Shown in pieces: positions 20,093 through 27,124 of a stretch of DNA of 28,770 nt. Positions within the stretch are counted from its first letter, which is position 1, and each line of letters begins with the position of its first letter. The notes under the pieces are model-generated. The model was not told where the DNA came from. It did no database searches and was given only the letters and a program-made list of their open reading frames with translations. The translations under genes and the position numbers were made by a program. The DNA comes from a virus, in the IMG/VR virus record IMGVR_UViG_3300043466_001525, positions 1-28,770 of that record. One strand, 5' to 3'.

Positions 20093-20429
20093 CAAATGCT
20101 CTCCTTTGCTCTACGTTTAATACTTCACGCTCAAAGCCAAATGGATCGTCAATCATTAACTGAGAAAGGCGAACATCGTTCATTAGTTCTTTGTCGATAG
20201 CAGTTGGTTTTTTAACATCATATGCATCAACAAAGTTTCCTACCTCTTGGCTTTTTTCTAAGAAAAACTCGACTTCAAAATCTGTTGTTTTGATTTTGCT
20301 TACGCCAAGTTTTCGACATTCGTTTATAATACCAAGAAGTTTGTATCTTTTGCTAGTTGCCGTACATTTCGTTCCAGGCTGCGACTTCATCTCTAAAGGC
20401 TTGCCACTCATCTTTCGTCTGGTCTTCAT
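20073..20429 (-). CDS. Small protein between terminase and portal (118 aa or shorter), unknown
   Basis: The open frame gives 118 residues from MKTRRKMSGKPLEM. A GGGGAG ribosome site stands 7 bases before this ATG (20429), which would overlap the terminase gene by 77 bases in another frame. An alternative ATG at 20390 (MKSQPGTKCTATSKRYKLLG) reduces the overlap to 38 bases but has only a weak site. The product is Lys/Glu-rich, with KLGVSKIKTTDFEVEFFLEK and a C-terminal MIDDPFGFEREVLNVEQRRA. No known domain is recognised. A small gene between large terminase and portal is common in podoviruses and usually of unknown function. Confidence 0.65.
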   Translation of the reverse strand: MKTRRKMSGKPLEMKSQPGTKCTATSKRYKLLGIINECRKLGVSKIKTTDFEVEFFLEKSQEVGNFVDAYDVKKPTAIDKELMNDVRLSQLMIDDPFGFEREVLNVEQRRAFDEAHEN

Positions 20430-21966
20430 CTAACATCTCCCCGCGACGCTGCTTGATTTGCCATTCCATGAACTTTTCTTTAGTCCATCTAGTATCAGGC
20501 ACTTCTTCTCTTTCGTCATCATCAATTTTTAAATTTGGAGCAATTTTAACAAAATCCCATGGAATTAACTTTAAAACATATCTTAAAGCGTCAGTTAGAT
20601 CGTCTTGGAATTTTCTGTTCTTCTCGCCAGCAGGAACAGACATTAACTCTGTGACAAGCTTACGATTATCGTAAACTCCTTCATCGATAGTTAATGCCTT
20701 GCTTGCAAAGAGTGTGTTGGTGATCTGCTCGCCACTGTTACGTTGTTTGTCGGCAGGAAGAAAAGGCTCCCCCGATCTCGCCGCAATAAGTCCAAACTCG
20801 CGAGACTGATAATCGTAACAGGCTTGTGTGATACTAATACCTTGCCTCAATTCTTGATATTTTTCAAGTATGTCGGCTGCAGTTGTTTCTTCGTGATCTC
20901 CACGCCACGTCCTTATTACTCGTCCTCTGTCCAAATCCGGTGCAACAGCCACAATAACGATAGCGCCTGCACTACGACCGCGACCACCACTACCAATGTC
21001 AATTCCGGCATAATACCTCCAGCTAGATGGAATTTTCTCAGAAGAATCCCCAAGGCATTTATCAGGATCAAACGTCAGATAACGCCTTCCCTCGTCTTTT
21101 ACAAACCTTCCGTCAATCCTCTTTAAGATCTCAGACTGTGAGGTACAAAATCCTTCAGCCTCTTTGATCCTTGCGTCAGTCCACTGACTAGGTGTGCCAT
21201 CGTCAAAATATTGACAGTCACGCATCGATATGCTGCGCTTCCATGCATCAGGAAACATCTCCTCAGATGTGCCAATACACTCCATGGCCCGATACCATAC
21301 CTGAAGACCACGGGTTGCTGTGAAGACCTGATTAAAGAATCCCCTTGTGGCACGAAGCCTTGCTAAACACTCGTTGATGATCTCCTCTGGGGCCTCCTCA
21401 TCGAATGTAATCATATGGACACTAGAGGTCTGGAGGTTAATCACCTTTTGACCATAGCTCTTGAAGTAAATACTTACACCAGAACGAAAGTGAATCGCCT
21501 GTACGTCTCCACTAGAATACTCAACATCCCAGCCGTAATTTTCGTGATCTTTCATCGCGCCACGAGGTAAAAACTCTGGAATCCATTTCTTCTCCACCTC
21601 ACTCGTAGCTACGCTGTCTGATGGATAGAAATACCAGAACTGCTTAGGAGGAGTTTCCCACAGATCCTTCCACAGCTTCTTATTACATGCCCATTCAATG
21701 TTCTTTCTGATTGCTATGCTGCTCTTACCAATCTGGTTAGCAGCACAAAGAAGATTCATCCTGTTGCGAGATTCAAAAAACTCACGCGCCCATGGATACC
21801 ACTTCCAACCATATAGGTGCGGTAAATCCTGCTGGAGCTCCTTAATCCTAGCCTTGATGACACTTTGCTGAAATGTAATTGGATCTAAATTCTTTGCCCT
21901 AGAAAGCTCTCTAGTTAACTCTACTGTGTCGACCGAATTATCTCGAACGCTCTTTTTCCTCGGCAT
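20353..21966 (-). CDS. terL: Terminase large subunit (packaging ATPase-nuclease)
   Basis: A 537-residue product from the ATG at 21966 (MPRKKSVRDNSVDTVELTRE). ATPase: an adenine-binding region with WYPWAREFFES, Walker A CAANQIGKSS (about 74-83), Walker B HMITFDEEAP (about 184-193) with the catalytic Glu, and the TATRG coupling motif (about 216). Nuclease (RNase-H fold): first acidic residue in YAGIDIGSGG (Asp about 323), ACYDYQSREFG (Asp about 385), and a final acidic cluster in QDDLTDALRY (about 454-462). It pumps DNA through the portal and cuts it. The start overlaps the small-subunit gene by 29 bases. The frame is open 9 codons further up, but the GAGGT site favours this ATG. Confidence 0.92.
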   Translation of the reverse strand: MPRKKSVRDNSVDTVELTRELSRAKNLDPITFQQSVIKARIKELQQDLPHLYGWKWYPWAREFFESRNRMNLLCAANQIGKSSIAIRKNIEWACNKKLWKDLWETPPKQFWYFYPSDSVATSEVEKKWIPEFLPRGAMKDHENYGWDVEYSSGDVQAIHFRSGVSIYFKSYGQKVINLQTSSVHMITFDEEAPEEIINECLARLRATRGFFNQVFTATRGLQVWYRAMECIGTSEEMFPDAWKRSISMRDCQYFDDGTPSQWTDARIKEAEGFCTSQSEILKRIDGRFVKDEGRRYLTFDPDKCLGDSSEKIPSSWRYYAGIDIGSGGRGRSAGAIVIVAVAPDLDRGRVIRTWRGDHEETTAADILEKYQELRQGISITQACYDYQSREFGLIAARSGEPFLPADKQRNSGEQITNTLFASKALTIDEGVYDNRKLVTELMSVPAGEKNRKFQDDLTDALRYVLKLIPWDFVKIAPNLKIDDDEREEVPDTRWTKEKFMEWQIKQRRGEMLDEDQTKDEWQAFRDEVAAWNEMYGN

Positions 21967-22822
21967 GAATGACCTCATCAAGTTTGAGTTCAATATCGGG
22001 TAACTCAGGAACCTCTGGAATGTCTGGCATCATCATGCGCTGAGATGACTTTGTTACGTTCTCAAAGTCCTCAAGTAACTCACCACCAATAATCAATTCC
22101 CTTTGCTCATGGGTGATACCTTTTAAATACTTTGTCTGATCCCTCTTGGCCTTCTCTATGCGACGCTCTAATGCCTCGAGATCCTCAAGCTGCAAAGCTT
22201 GGATACTCATCCTAGCCTGCTCTACTCCAGAATCAGCATTGAGGTTTAAGTTCAGATTCTTCTGCTCAACCTGCATCCTCTGCACAATACCACCCTTCAC
22301 ACGCATATCAGCTAACTGCCATGCCTTGAGAACAAGTGTCGCTACCTTCGTGTCAATCTTACCTTCCTTATCTGTCATAGGAAGATTCATGATCTCAAGA
22401 AGACGCTCTGTGCCACGGTAAAGAATCTGACGCATAGCCGCGACATAACTCGTAGGCGGAGTAAATACCCAAAGCATCTTGTGATTGTTAGGCTCATAAA
22501 TAGTTACCCAACCCTCCCAAGAACATGCGCCACAAATAACACTCTGCAAACTCATCTTCTTACCAGCAGCTGTAGCAGCATTATACTCGTCCCAGAATGA
22601 TAACCTCACACGATCATCACGCTCATCAGGCTCGCAGTAATTTCTTAACTCACGCTCAGTCCTTAAAAGCATCCTAGGCAACTTATCCTTCACACGCTCC
22701 AATATCGGAACAAGCCTCGGAGGAATCATGTTGATTAATGCCTGCGGATTCTCAGGATCATATAAGCTACTTAATGCCTCATCAGACACCGCTTTCGGTC
22801 TACCTGGCTGCCTACCGGCCAT
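21938..22822 (-). CDS. Putative terminase small subunit (294 aa)
   Basis: A 294-residue protein directly upstream of the large terminase. It has a basic, Pro-containing N-terminus (MAGRQPGRPKAVSDEALSS), a central ordered segment (YVAAMRQILYRGTERLLEIM), a charged coiled-coil region (about 205-245, LEDLEALERRIEKAKRDQTK), and an acidic C-terminal tail (IPEVPELPDIELKLDEVIHA) of the kind that can contact the large subunit. It is longer than typical small subunits. The assignment rests mainly on gene order, coiled coil and acidic tail. No clear helix-turn-helix was verified. The start has GGGGT about 5 bases upstream. It would recognise the packaging site, which may lie in the non-coding region just upstream. 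Confidence 0.65.
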   Translation of the reverse strand: MAGRQPGRPKAVSDEALSSLYDPENPQALINMIPPRLVPILERVKDKLPRMLLRTERELRNYCEPDERDDRVRLSFWDEYNAATAAGKKMSLQSVICGACSWEGWVTIYEPNNHKMLWVFTPPTSYVAAMRQILYRGTERLLEIMNLPMTDKEGKIDTKVATLVLKAWQLADMRVKGGIVQRMQVEQKNLNLNLNADSGVEQARMSIQALQLEDLEALERRIEKAKRDQTKYLKGITHEQRELIIGGELLEDFENVTKSSQRMMMPDIPEVPELPDIELKLDEVIHAEEKERSR

Positions 22823-23397: not shown

Positions 23398-23427
23398 AAA
23401 CAAACAACCCCCGTATTATTACGAGGG
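23398..23427 (-). terminator. Intrinsic terminator of the amidoligase cassette
   Basis: On the minus strand CCCTCGT (23427-23421) pairs with ACGGGGG (23414-23408), a 7-bp stem with one T-G wobble and the loop AATAAT, followed by TTGTTTGTTT. It lies 25 bases after the last cassette gene's stop, and no comparable T-run follows on the plus strand. Confidence 0.7.
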
Positions 23428-23452
23428 CTCATTGTCCAATATTTGATCTATC

Positions 23453-23686
23453 CTAACCCAATTCTGCTAACGCCAGTCCTACGGTCAATCGACTGTATTT
23501 CGCTCCATCGGGCGTCCTTGGCGGCAATTGCTCCATTAGCCAGTAAACTTGATCGCGCCTACTATTGAATCTATCCTTTGCCTGAACCATTAGCCGATAC
23601 AGTGACTCATCATTATACAGCCACAATGATACATTCCAAGCCGTCCATGAGCGATGGCCATTGTATTCCTTAATCTCGTTGCCCAT
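23453..23686 (-). CDS. Small Trp-motif protein, last gene of the amidoligase cassette (77 aa)
   Basis: A 77-residue protein from the ATG at 23686 (MGNEIKEYNGHRSWTAWNVS). The ATG shares a base with the zinc-ribbon gene's TAA (TAATG), with an AAGGGGG ribosome site upstream. The frame is open further, but that stretch shadows the upstream gene. Its hallmark is W14-x-x-W17-N-V-S-L-W22 followed by NDESLYRL. I recognise this pattern from tiny phage proteins of unknown function that also begin with a G-H-x-x-W-x-x-W segment. The C-terminus ends with SRLTVGLALAELG. There are no catalytic residues or membrane segment. Co-translation suggests it serves the amidoligase system, as partner, adaptor or substrate. 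Confidence 0.75.
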   Translation of the reverse strand: MGNEIKEYNGHRSWTAWNVSLWLYNDESLYRLMVQAKDRFNSRRDQVYWLMEQLPPRTPDGAKYSRLTVGLALAELG

Positions 23687-23874
23687 TATTTTTTCCCCCT
23701 TAGAATATTGGCGCATGATTGACATACCTTGCACTGATGCCTCAAGTACCGAACCCATCGGCCTTGATCATTTTTAGTCTCATTACAGCGCATACAACGG
23801 TACTTGAATTTTTTAGTCGATTTGTCCATTGGCTTAGTTCTATCGTCAATTACTAACGGTATTAAAATAATCAT
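23686..23874 (-). CDS. Small zinc-ribbon protein in the amidoligase cassette (62 aa)
   Basis: A 62-residue basic protein with C27-x2-C30 and C48-x2-C51 (plus C54), a classic zinc-ribbon spacing. The ATG overlaps the amidotransferase TAA (TAATG), with a strong AAGGAGG ribosome site 7 bases upstream, so the start at 23874 is well supported. The first ten residues (MIILIPLVID) are hydrophobic but too short for a membrane span. Zinc ribbons bind nucleic acid or protein. Here, between an amidotransferase and a Trp-motif protein, it may present a substrate or regulate the pathway. The Lys/Arg content would also allow DNA or RNA binding. Confidence 0.75.
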   Translation of the reverse strand: MIILIPLVIDDRTKPMDKSTKKFKYRCMRCNETKNDQGRWVRYLRHQCKVCQSCANILRGKK

Positions 23875-24542
23875 TACTTGGCCTCCTTATGTGTATCCCA
23901 TCCATTCAAGTAATCATCAGAATCCCATCGGCTATTAAAGTCCCATGAGTCCCATCGGTATTCGCTTGGCTTTGACAAGTCCAAGTCATGATCGGTCACG
24001 GTGTATTCTGCCACTGGCGTTGTAATCGCATCGAACGCATGGGTTGAGTAATTGCCATTGCCGTCAGTAAACAGTGAACCAGTCATTGATCGGTGAACAA
24101 TATAATTGCCGTCAACGGTATTTACTAAGAATACATTGGCGAATGGTTCATCATGGAGTTTATCTATTGTCTCATCAATCCCATAGAACTCAAGCCAATA
24201 GCGTATTGCTTCAGAATCCACGTTGAATCGTTCGCTAATCTTGGAGCGAATAGAACCATTATGAAATACATAAGTCCCGTTATGGTTCCATCCATGCGTA
24301 TTATGCAATGCAGCAATGCCTTGAGTCGCGTAGCGGGTATGTATGAATATTCGCTTATAATCCATTATTTCAATTAGACCAATGATCGGGTCGGTATTCA
24401 TCGACTGGATGAATAGTGGAGTCCCGTCTAATTGAATCATAAGCATCGCAAAGCCGTCCGAATTACTCATTGAGTCGCTGATGATGCGTTCAATTACTGA
24501 CTGTTTATTGATTGATTGATCGACTGTAATGACTGTACACAT
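23874..24542 (-). CDS. Class II (Ntn-type) glutamine amidotransferase
   Basis: A 222-residue stand-alone glutaminase-type domain. Met1 is followed directly by Cys2, the N-terminal nucleophile exposed after Met removal. Other class II landmarks in order: DGFAM (29-33), HTRYAT (68-73) with the Arg that binds the glutamine carboxylate, NTHGWNHNGTYVFHNG (81-96) with the oxyanion-hole Asn-Gly, and an acidic position after it (about 109). It should hydrolyse glutamine and pass ammonia to a partner. No synthase domain is fused, and the obvious partner is the amidoligase ending 11 bases upstream. The C-terminus (194-217) is an unusual Trp/Asp-rich tail with RWDS twice. The ribosome site is AAGGAGT. 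Confidence 0.85.
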   Translation of the reverse strand: MCTVITVDQSINKQSVIERIISDSMSNSDGFAMLMIQLDGTPLFIQSMNTDPIIGLIEIMDYKRIFIHTRYATQGIAALHNTHGWNHNGTYVFHNGSIRSKISERFNVDSEAIRYWLEFYGIDETIDKLHDEPFANVFLVNTVDGNYIVHRSMTGSLFTDGNGNYSTHAFDAITTPVAEYTVTDHDLDLSKPSEYRWDSWDFNSRWDSDDYLNGWDTHKEAK

Positions 24543-24553
24543 TGATTGACTCC

Positions 24554-25510
24554 TTATGCCGATTGGCGTGATTGATTGAGTTTACGGTAATGACGCAATT
24601 GTTTACTGACTGGCATTGAACAGATTAAGCATTCGCTGAACAATTCATGTAAGTCACCGCCGTATGAATCGGTAAGTAATGACTTTCCTTGTTGAGTGAC
24701 TTGGTAAGCATGAGCCATTGCTTCAATCGCAATATTGAGGCAAGTCAATCCATCCTTTGTATTGTGGACGTTGCCGAAACACCTGAATTCCCATGTGCCT
24801 TGCTCGTGAGCGTAAACGAATGAATATTTATTTTTAGACGATAGCAGGCCTTTAATATATTGATTCTGTGGCGCGTTCTTCCAACGTTTACGAACCGTTT
24901 TAGGTATTCTGTGAATATTCTCAATCAAATATTCAACCAATGCCAATTGGAAGCGATCGCCATAAGAATGCTTGACGCCCGGGATGCTTAGGTGAATGTG
25001 ATACGAGCAATTCTCATCAATTCTATGATCGAGAGAGAATGCTGCGCGTGATGCAATGACGAATTGAGCGTAAGTCAACGCGCCAATAGTTCTGAACTCA
25101 TAACCGTCGACGCTGCCGTCTTTACCGCATTCAATTTTAGGTTTGTCAATATTGCTGGACGTTGAATATTTGCGTAATTCATTGCGAACCGCGCTATCTA
25201 TTTCATTCTGAAGCAATTCATTTATATCAGTTTTATAATCGCTGTAATCAAAGTCACTGCTGACTGAATCCCATACCGCCTCACGAACCTGATTCATAAT
25301 TCTGTCACTAACATGATTCTCTAATGAACGCCCGATTATTTCATCGACTTGATCGCCAATTGCATCATTGGCTGCATCATGATCTATATCCTCACCGCAT
25401 TCTATTGCATCGCAGCCAGTGGCTTGAGTCTCGAGCTCAAATCCACAGCGAATTATTGCGCGTCGAGCGATTGCATTAGCCTCTAAGAATTTTTTAATTG
25501 CTGGGTTCAT
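24554..25510 (-). CDS. Amidoligase of the glutamine-synthetase-like (COOH-NH2 ligase) fold
   Basis: A 318-residue protein with the ordered motifs of this family: GFELE (23-27), KDGSVDGYEFRT (130-141, with D131, E138 and R140), CSYHIHLS (168-175, with the HxH pair) and TWEFRCFGN (239-247). In glutamine-synthetase-fold ligases these Glu, His and Arg residues bind Mg-ATP and the carboxylate. Known members form amide bonds by ATP-dependent ligation. An acidic helical insertion (about 34-120) separates the first two motifs. The substrate is unknown. It starts the cassette with a TGGAGT ribosome site, and the next gene is the glutamine amidotransferase that could supply ammonia. Codon use (AGC/TCA Ser, CGN Arg) differs from the late genes. 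Confidence 0.82.
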   Translation of the reverse strand: MNPAIKKFLEANAIARRAIIRCGFELETQATGCDAIECGEDIDHDAANDAIGDQVDEIIGRSLENHVSDRIMNQVREAVWDSVSSDFDYSDYKTDINELLQNEIDSAVRNELRKYSTSSNIDKPKIECGKDGSVDGYEFRTIGALTYAQFVIASRAAFSLDHRIDENCSYHIHLSIPGVKHSYGDRFQLALVEYLIENIHRIPKTVRKRWKNAPQNQYIKGLLSSKNKYSFVYAHEQGTWEFRCFGNVHNTKDGLTCLNIAIEAMAHAYQVTQQGKSLLTDSYGGDLHELFSECLICSMPVSKQLRHYRKLNQSRQSA

Positions 25511-25897: not shown

Positions 25898-26103
25898 ATT
25901 TCATCCCAGACAAAGACATGCCATTTAAAAGCCCTCAGCATAGCCTAGAATCGAATAAAATAGTCCGGCAATACAATGACTCCATAAACATTTAAAACGC
26001 GCCAGAATTGATTTAAACGTTCCAAAATATTGCCTACGTGGAAATGCCTATAGTTTCACCAAGATGTGCTAAACTTAGGCAACCGACAGATGGAGGCTCG
26101 CCA

Positions 26104-26841
26104 ATGAAGACGTACCTCGTGCTGCCTGACCTGCATATCCCGTATCACTGCCCGAAGTTTCTAAAACTTGCAACGAAGCTAATCAAAGAATTAAATCCTG
26201 ATGGAATTATTCAACTTGGCGATGCTCTCGATGCATTTCAAATCTCCACATACAGCAAAGATCCATCGCGAAGAAATCTTTTGGTCGACGACATCGAAGA
26301 CTGGAAACAAGTTTTGAATGAATGGGCAAGGCACTTAAAGTCTGGTGCAACAATTCACCTTCTCGAAGGCAACCACGAATATAGGCTATCGCGTTACATC
26401 GCGTCACAGTGTCGAGATCTGCACGGACTTGTACCAGACTGGAAATCACTTCTCGCGATCGATCTTCGCAATAAAGCAGGCAGACACAAGTGGCATTGGC
26501 ACAAATACACGAAATGGGACAGCTGCCGAATTGGTGATTGCGTCGTCATGCATGGTTTTTATTTCAACCAACACGTAGCCGCTACTTGCCTAGCGAAGTA
26601 CCGCACCAATGTAATCTTCGGACACACTCACAGATTGCAATATGTTTCTGACGGTACACATTACGCCTGTTCACTTGGTCACGGCAGCAATGAACATGAA
26701 ACAGCGCATCAGCCAACTCCGACAGGATGGCAGCAATGTATGGGATTGCTACACGTTGATGGCCAAGGTAAAACTAAACTAGATATTATCCAGGTACATG
26801 ACGGCAAGGCGGTGGTCTATGGCAAGCAAATCAGTGTTTGA
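26104..26841 (+). CDS. Calcineurin-like metallophosphoesterase
   Basis: A 245-residue protein from the ATG at 26104, chosen because TGGAGG lies 7 bases upstream, whereas the earlier in-frame start at 26038 has no site. Metallophosphoesterase motifs in order: PDLH (8-11), QLGDALD (37-43), EGNHEYR (88-94), a metal-binding His at 150 (VVMHGF) and FGHTHR (172-177), giving a full dinuclear metal site. The family hydrolyses phosphoester bonds in nucleic acids, nucleotides or proteins. The substrate here is unknown. It is the first gene of a two-gene plus-strand island and overlaps the next gene by 23 bases. A role in DNA or nucleotide processing or in countering host phospho-signals is possible. 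Confidence 0.88.
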   Translation: MKTYLVLPDLHIPYHCPKFLKLATKLIKELNPDGIIQLGDALDAFQISTYSKDPSRRNLLVDDIEDWKQVLNEWARHLKSGATIHLLEGNHEYRLSRYIASQCRDLHGLVPDWKSLLAIDLRNKAGRHKWHWHKYTKWDSCRIGDCVVMHGFYFNQHVAATCLAKYRTNVIFGHTHRLQYVSDGTHYACSLGHGSNEHETAHQPTPTGWQQCMGLLHVDGQGKTKLDIIQVHDGKAVVYGKQISV

Positions 26842-27124
26842 TCTGAAGCGTCCACCACGTAGCGTGATGGTGTGCGGTCAGAAGGTTGCTGTGAAGGTAG
26901 TCGCATATCTCGAAGACGAAAGCGAAGAGCTCTTAGGAGCGTTCAACGGTGAAAGCAAAACAATTTACATTCTTCGCGGCACGAACTGGAAGCAAACGTT
27001 GCTTCATGAAATTTGTCACGCCATTTTATATTTCTCTGGAGCAAGCGAAGGTTTGACAATCAGCCGAGAAGAACAAATTGTTCTCGCTCTCGAGCATGGC
27101 CTCATGCCTCTTTTGCAGAAGTAG
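26819..27124 (+). CDS. Small HExxH zinc metallopeptidase-like protein (101 aa)
   Basis: A 101-residue protein from the ATG at 26819 (MASKSVFDLKRPPRSVMVCG). An earlier in-frame ATG at 26798 is less likely. The core is LLHEICHAILYFSG with H63-E64-x-x-H67, the zinc-binding and catalytic motif. Glu84/Glu85 in SREEQIVLALEHGL is a plausible third ligand, as in ImmA/IrrE- or SprT-like minimal peptidases. The N-terminal half is a small beta sheet with an acidic loop. Proteins of this size and motif occur in phages, often with unknown targets; ImmA-type relatives cleave repressors. The gene overlaps the 3' end of the opposite zinc-ribbon gene by 23 bases (27102-27124). Confidence 0.82.
   Translation: MASKSVFDLKRPPRSVMVCGQKVAVKVVAYLEDESEELLGAFNGESKTIYILRGTNWKQTLLHEICHAILYFSGASEGLTISREEQIVLALEHGLMPLLQK

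Follow-up and report, generated by a model that had tools for sequence, protein, structure and literature searches.

A conserved phage gene pair of a diverged amidoligase and a small class II glutaminase, predicted to amidate a host carboxylate

Two neighbouring phage genes, encoding a diverged amidoligase (AML) and a stand-alone class II glutamine amidotransferase (GAT), form a conserved unit of two genes rather than the four that were originally proposed. The most likely role of this pair is the amidation of a host carboxylate using glutamine, plausibly in peptidoglycan, which would be directed against superinfection. The window in which the genes were analyzed is an entire virus contig of 28,770 bases. 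The enzyme classes and the partnership of AML and GAT are assigned with high confidence.

Gene organization and conservation

The original prediction described a cassette of four minus-strand genes between positions 23453 and 25510, and the positions of the open reading frames bore out these coordinates (Table 1). AML and GAT are separated by 11 bases and the remaining two junctions are TAATG overlaps, exactly as had been described. Upstream of the two TAATG junctions the motifs AAGGAGG or AGGGGG are found. The terminator predicted to close the operon corresponds to a strongly folding hairpin, although terminator-like patterns as such occur in the region at chance frequency (3 observed, 2.8 expected). 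All sequence motifs on which the prediction was built were present, namely GFELE, HIH and EFR in AML, Cys2, HTRYAT and HNG in GAT, the CxxC pairs of the third protein and WTAWNVSLW in the fourth.

Table 1. Features of the AML-GAT region in the window
Feature	Position	Strand	Basis
AML (318 aa), PF12224-like amidoligase of GS fold, diverged; residues 30-122 (approximate) form a helical insert	24554..25510	-	hhalign, AF2 model, Foldseek
GAT (222 aa), class II (Ntn) glutamine amidotransferase as a stand-alone domain; Cys follows the initial Met	23874..24542	-	hhalign, AF2 model, Foldseek
Zinc-ribbon-like protein, 62 aa, two CxxC pairs; accessory	23686..23874	-	kept in L005 and L013
DUF7249 (PF23907 / phrog_871) protein, 77 aa; probable passenger	23453..23686	-	Pfam 1.7e-10; not in the other 13 contigs
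Intrinsic-terminator-like hairpin closing the operon	23406..23429	-	fold -19.8 kcal/mol, z -3.4 vs shuffles

A TerL search yielded 21 loci which represent one virus lineage and its outgroups. Relatives of AML were found in five further contigs, two from the same lineage (L005 and L013, about 57% identity) and three from other lineages (L027, L028 and L038, 27-37% identity). Together the six AML-bearing contigs span at least three phage groups. The GAT gene follows directly after AML in every one of them. A profile search of 14 contigs detected AML in six and GAT in the same six, while both were missing from the other eight. Separate occurrence of the genes in related phages had been set beforehand as a refutation of the original prediction. 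For the two enzyme genes the linkage withstood this, as they were adjacent in 6/6 AML-bearing contigs and never apart among the contigs found. In L027 (contig G011, 59.5 kb) GAT runs over the contig ends. The first and last 55 bases of this contig are identical, and consequently the genome appears to be whole.

The cassette of four genes was not retained. A survey for co-occurrence of all four genes found the full set in the window contig only, and AML plus GAT in all six. The zinc ribbon is kept in all three AML-GAT carriers of the window's lineage (the window, L005 and L013) and was not seen downstream of AML-GAT in L028 or L038. The DUF7249 protein was detected in 1/14 contigs searched, that of the window; elsewhere it is a common, separate family in unrelated large and small phages, and it is probably a passenger. 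Because the zinc ribbon is specific to this lineage and the DUF7249 protein occurs in one contig, AML and GAT were taken as the conserved unit, and a functional unit of four genes was rejected.

In L028 (10053-10277) and in L038 (7502-7741) the place of the zinc ribbon after AML-GAT is taken by small proteins of 74-79 aa that appear to be related. Longer phage class II amidotransferases (L029, L030, L031, L039 and L040) carry CxxC pairs at their C-termini, and up to three ribbon-like units are found at the C-terminus of the Salmonella phage 7-11 amidotransferase. The idea that the zinc ribbon is the detached C-terminal ribbon of such longer proteins received no support from hhalign.

Several further observations concern the virus lineage itself. 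A search of 50,697 phage records with its TerL (window 20353-21993; L002-L017; contigs of 40-44 kb) brought up no close relative, with weak matches to Arthrobacter phage terminases only. A calcineurin-like metallophosphoesterase (phrog_221) at 26038-26841 on the plus strand overlaps a short protein at 26798-27124 on the same strand which contains the SprT-like zinc-peptidase motif HEICHA. Most members of the lineage keep both genes, with about 72-80% identity, and the neighbouring genes lie on the other strand. In L011 (6584-7279) and L010 (1646-2341), which have no amidoligase, the site of AML-GAT encodes a 231-aa protein and several small unknown genes. The 231-aa protein may resemble phage GP88-type proteins.

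Enzyme assignments

AML showed no significant family match in Pfam, PHROG or NCBIfam, and PF12224 was absent at E<=1 from the Pfam search for the window AML and four relatives. A search of PDB sequences with AML gave no match, and tblastn produced no significant match in the 50,697 phage records. In hhalign, the profile of the six AML sequences matched nine phage PF12224-type amidoligases with an E-value of 1.1e-6, which improved to 1.9e-8 when the helical insert was removed. In a column-shuffle control (n=100) the top score was 20.8 compared to 62.4 for the real profile. The alignment spans all core motifs (GFELE/GVEIE, DGS/DGS, CSxHIH/CSVHIH and EFR/EFR), whereby the GFELE-GVEIE pairing appears once the insert is removed. 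By this profile-profile comparison GxExE, DGS, HxH and EFR are homologous and in order, and they are invariant or nearly so among the distant relatives of AML. As a negative control, the AML profile was compared with the GAT profile and no match was obtained. Comparison with PF14395 (COOH-NH2 ligase type 2) resulted in an E-value of 0.33, and the reading of AML as a ligase of that type was rejected. Judged from these profiles, AML appears to represent a ligase family beyond Pfam recognition that current profile libraries miss.

The AlphaFold2 model of AML (pLDDT 80.8) was compared with known structures using Foldseek. Glutamine synthetases were the first PDB matches (E 4e-4, probability 0.98), with low TM-scores of 0.2-0.35. 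YbdK followed with a probability of 0.91, and many viral models labeled as amidoligase enzyme were matched with E-values down to 5e-7.

GAT likewise matched no Pfam family. PHROGs labeled it as L-glutamine-D-fructose-6-phosphate aminotransferase-type (7e-9), and its profile matched phage class II amidotransferases (GAT-II) with an hhalign E-value of 9e-14. Cys2, H68-T69-R70, H94-N95-G96 and V108-D109-S110 are invariant in five proteins. The AF2 model (pLDDT 75.8) corresponded in Foldseek to the GlmS glutaminase domain (2e-9) and to EgtC (5e-8, TM 0.63-0.65). Thus, the Ntn glutaminase fold and the profile homology were both recovered for GAT. Failure of structure prediction to give a GS-like and an Ntn fold had been set beforehand as a refutation of the original prediction. 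Both folds were obtained, and the two enzyme assignments stood. A scan of genome contigs for bacterial homologues, with an insensitive pattern-based first step, found none.

In size and fold GAT is as close to EgtC as to the GlmS domain, which makes a pair of the EgtA/EgtC kind the strongest alternative. AML would then make a gamma-glutamyl amide, and GAT would later remove the glutamyl group or cleave such amides, so that the pair would cycle or mature a small molecule and no ammonia would be channelled. GAT is a stand-alone protein with the EgtC fold as a top match, a GS-like ligase works with EgtC in ergothioneine synthesis, and larger phage cassettes are accompanied by a gamma-glutamyl cyclotransferase. 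This cyclotransferase, however, was not found in the six AML-GAT genomes, and the active-site residues of GAT are common to both kinds of enzyme and do not separate them. EgtC cleaves a gamma-glutamyl amide, and no further ergothioneine pathway gene was seen at the window. We consider this alternative unlikely, and amidation fed by ammonia is the probable chemistry according to the sequence motifs and the structural models.

Relation to known phage cassettes

An amidoligase together with a class II amidotransferase has been reported in LUZ24-like, tf, TC6/PA11, OM43 and RIO-1-like phages, in most cases accompanied by genes for an ATP-grasp enzyme, a COOH-NH2 ligase and a cyclotransferase (PMC3890496, PMC3517423, PMC6209634, PMC10580990, PMC5498523). 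We found both enzyme classes encoded together in LUZ24, TC6/PA11, Vibrio phage 1.262.O, phage ctwe8250 and Arthrobacter phage Kharcho. The window resembles the peptidoglycan modification cassettes of LUZ24, phiEco32, 7-11, PA11 and RIO-1 in that an amidoligase of the PF12224 type is encoded close to a class II glutamine amidotransferase. To these two genes the cassettes add a PF14395 ligase and an ATP-grasp enzyme, and in many cases a gamma-glutamyl cyclotransferase as well, whereas the window has the pair alone. At 382-649 aa in the six examined, the amidotransferases of these cassettes exceed GAT in length and most possess C-terminal CxxC pairs, and AML differs from their ligases in having diverged past Pfam recognition. 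ATP-grasp, PF14395 and GGACT partners were detected in none of the 6/6 AML-bearing genomes, of which only G011 is demonstrably whole and the others may be incomplete, while control phages were positive. Among annotated phages, a two-gene form is exemplified by gp65-gp66 of Arthrobacter phage Kharcho (carboxylate-amine ligase and glutamine amidotransferase), in which the ligase adjoins a stand-alone amidotransferase as it does here. The Kharcho ligase matched a PF12224 phage protein in BLAST (E 1e-10), whereas AML did not.

AML-GAT is a diverged, minimal version of a known phage gene set and not a new kind of system. What sets it apart is the diverged ligase family and the missing ATP-grasp, COOH-NH2 ligase and cyclotransferase genes, with the reservation on genome completeness given above. 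It is doubtful that AML-GAT is instead a separate, self-sufficient enzyme of two subunits, in which a new ligase family, having gained a small glutaminase of its own and a different target, has spread as a compact module among unrelated phages, independent of the large cassette.

Proposed reaction and target

The PF12224 profile match, the fold matches, the adjacency in 6/6 contigs and the co-occurrence in known phages all argue for an amidating pair. AML and GAT would constitute a two-subunit, glutamine-dependent amidating enzyme. Its conserved Ntn active site suggests that GAT hydrolyses glutamine by means of the N-terminal cysteine and releases ammonia. The GS fold and conserved motifs of AML suggest that it converts a carboxylate to an acyl phosphate at the expense of ATP, and that this activated group would then be coupled to the ammonia released by GAT or to another amine. 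The likeliest substrate would be a carboxylate left free in a cell-wall precursor of the host, for example that of D-Glu or of meso-diaminopimelate within the stem peptide. Competing phages might consequently find the infected cell harder to enter or to digest.

A wall target is proposed here because the literature on the larger cassettes proposes it, where peptidoglycan modification against superinfection was put forward as their role (PMC5498523, PMC10580990). In the literature searched, no experiment proving the target of any such phage cassette was found. The proposal for phage cassettes reportedly originates from Iyer et al. 2009. In bacteria, LtsA/AsnB-type enzymes and MurT-GatD amidate carboxylates of the stem peptide using glutamine. 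LtsA/AsnB-type amidation of meso-DAP and MurT-GatD thus offer a likeness in reaction, but the synthetase folds of AsnB (ATP-pyrophosphatase) and MurT-GatD (Mur ligase) are unlike that of AML, and GatD is a class I amidotransferase whereas GAT belongs to class II. No recognised cell-wall gene lies beside AML-GAT, and in 6/6 genomes the partners on which the peptidoglycan argument is built were not found, which counts against a role in the wall. The low TM-scores of AML to glutamine synthetase also weigh against the explanation. By analogy, the cell wall is tentatively named as the target. The whole explanation, in which AML-GAT would amidate cell-wall precursors with glutamine and thereby hinder rival phages, is likewise put forward tentatively.

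The same chemistry could act on a protein side chain, which would be amidated or aminoacylated either in the virion or in the host, where RNA polymerase and the ribosome are examples. In the window's lineage and in G013, AML-GAT sits a short way upstream of the terminase genes and shares their strand, and protein modification is an established prediction for certain families of amidoligases and ATP-grasp enzymes (PMC7824862). The pair has no dedicated substrate protein conserved alongside, though, as the zinc ribbon and DUF7249 were not found with all members, and we judge a protein target to be quite unlikely. An equally low probability is given to the synthesis of a small metabolite or to a function in defence or counter-defence, where the product would block either a rival phage or a defence signal of the host. 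The site of AML-GAT between the metallophosphoesterase and TerS is variable in the window's lineage (L011, L016, L006 and L010 contain other small genes), as is usual for accessory phage genes; PADLOC defence models, on the other hand, were not matched, and a known defence system was rejected.

The pairing of amidoligase and glutaminase itself is already known from publications on several groups of phages, in which it is predicted to be a module for modifying the cell wall. AML adds to it a ligase family overlooked by present profile libraries. A phage gene set of unproven target is reduced here to two genes, and with two small proteins and no ATP-grasp enzyme or second ligase, the question of what phage amidoligases modify becomes easier to address.
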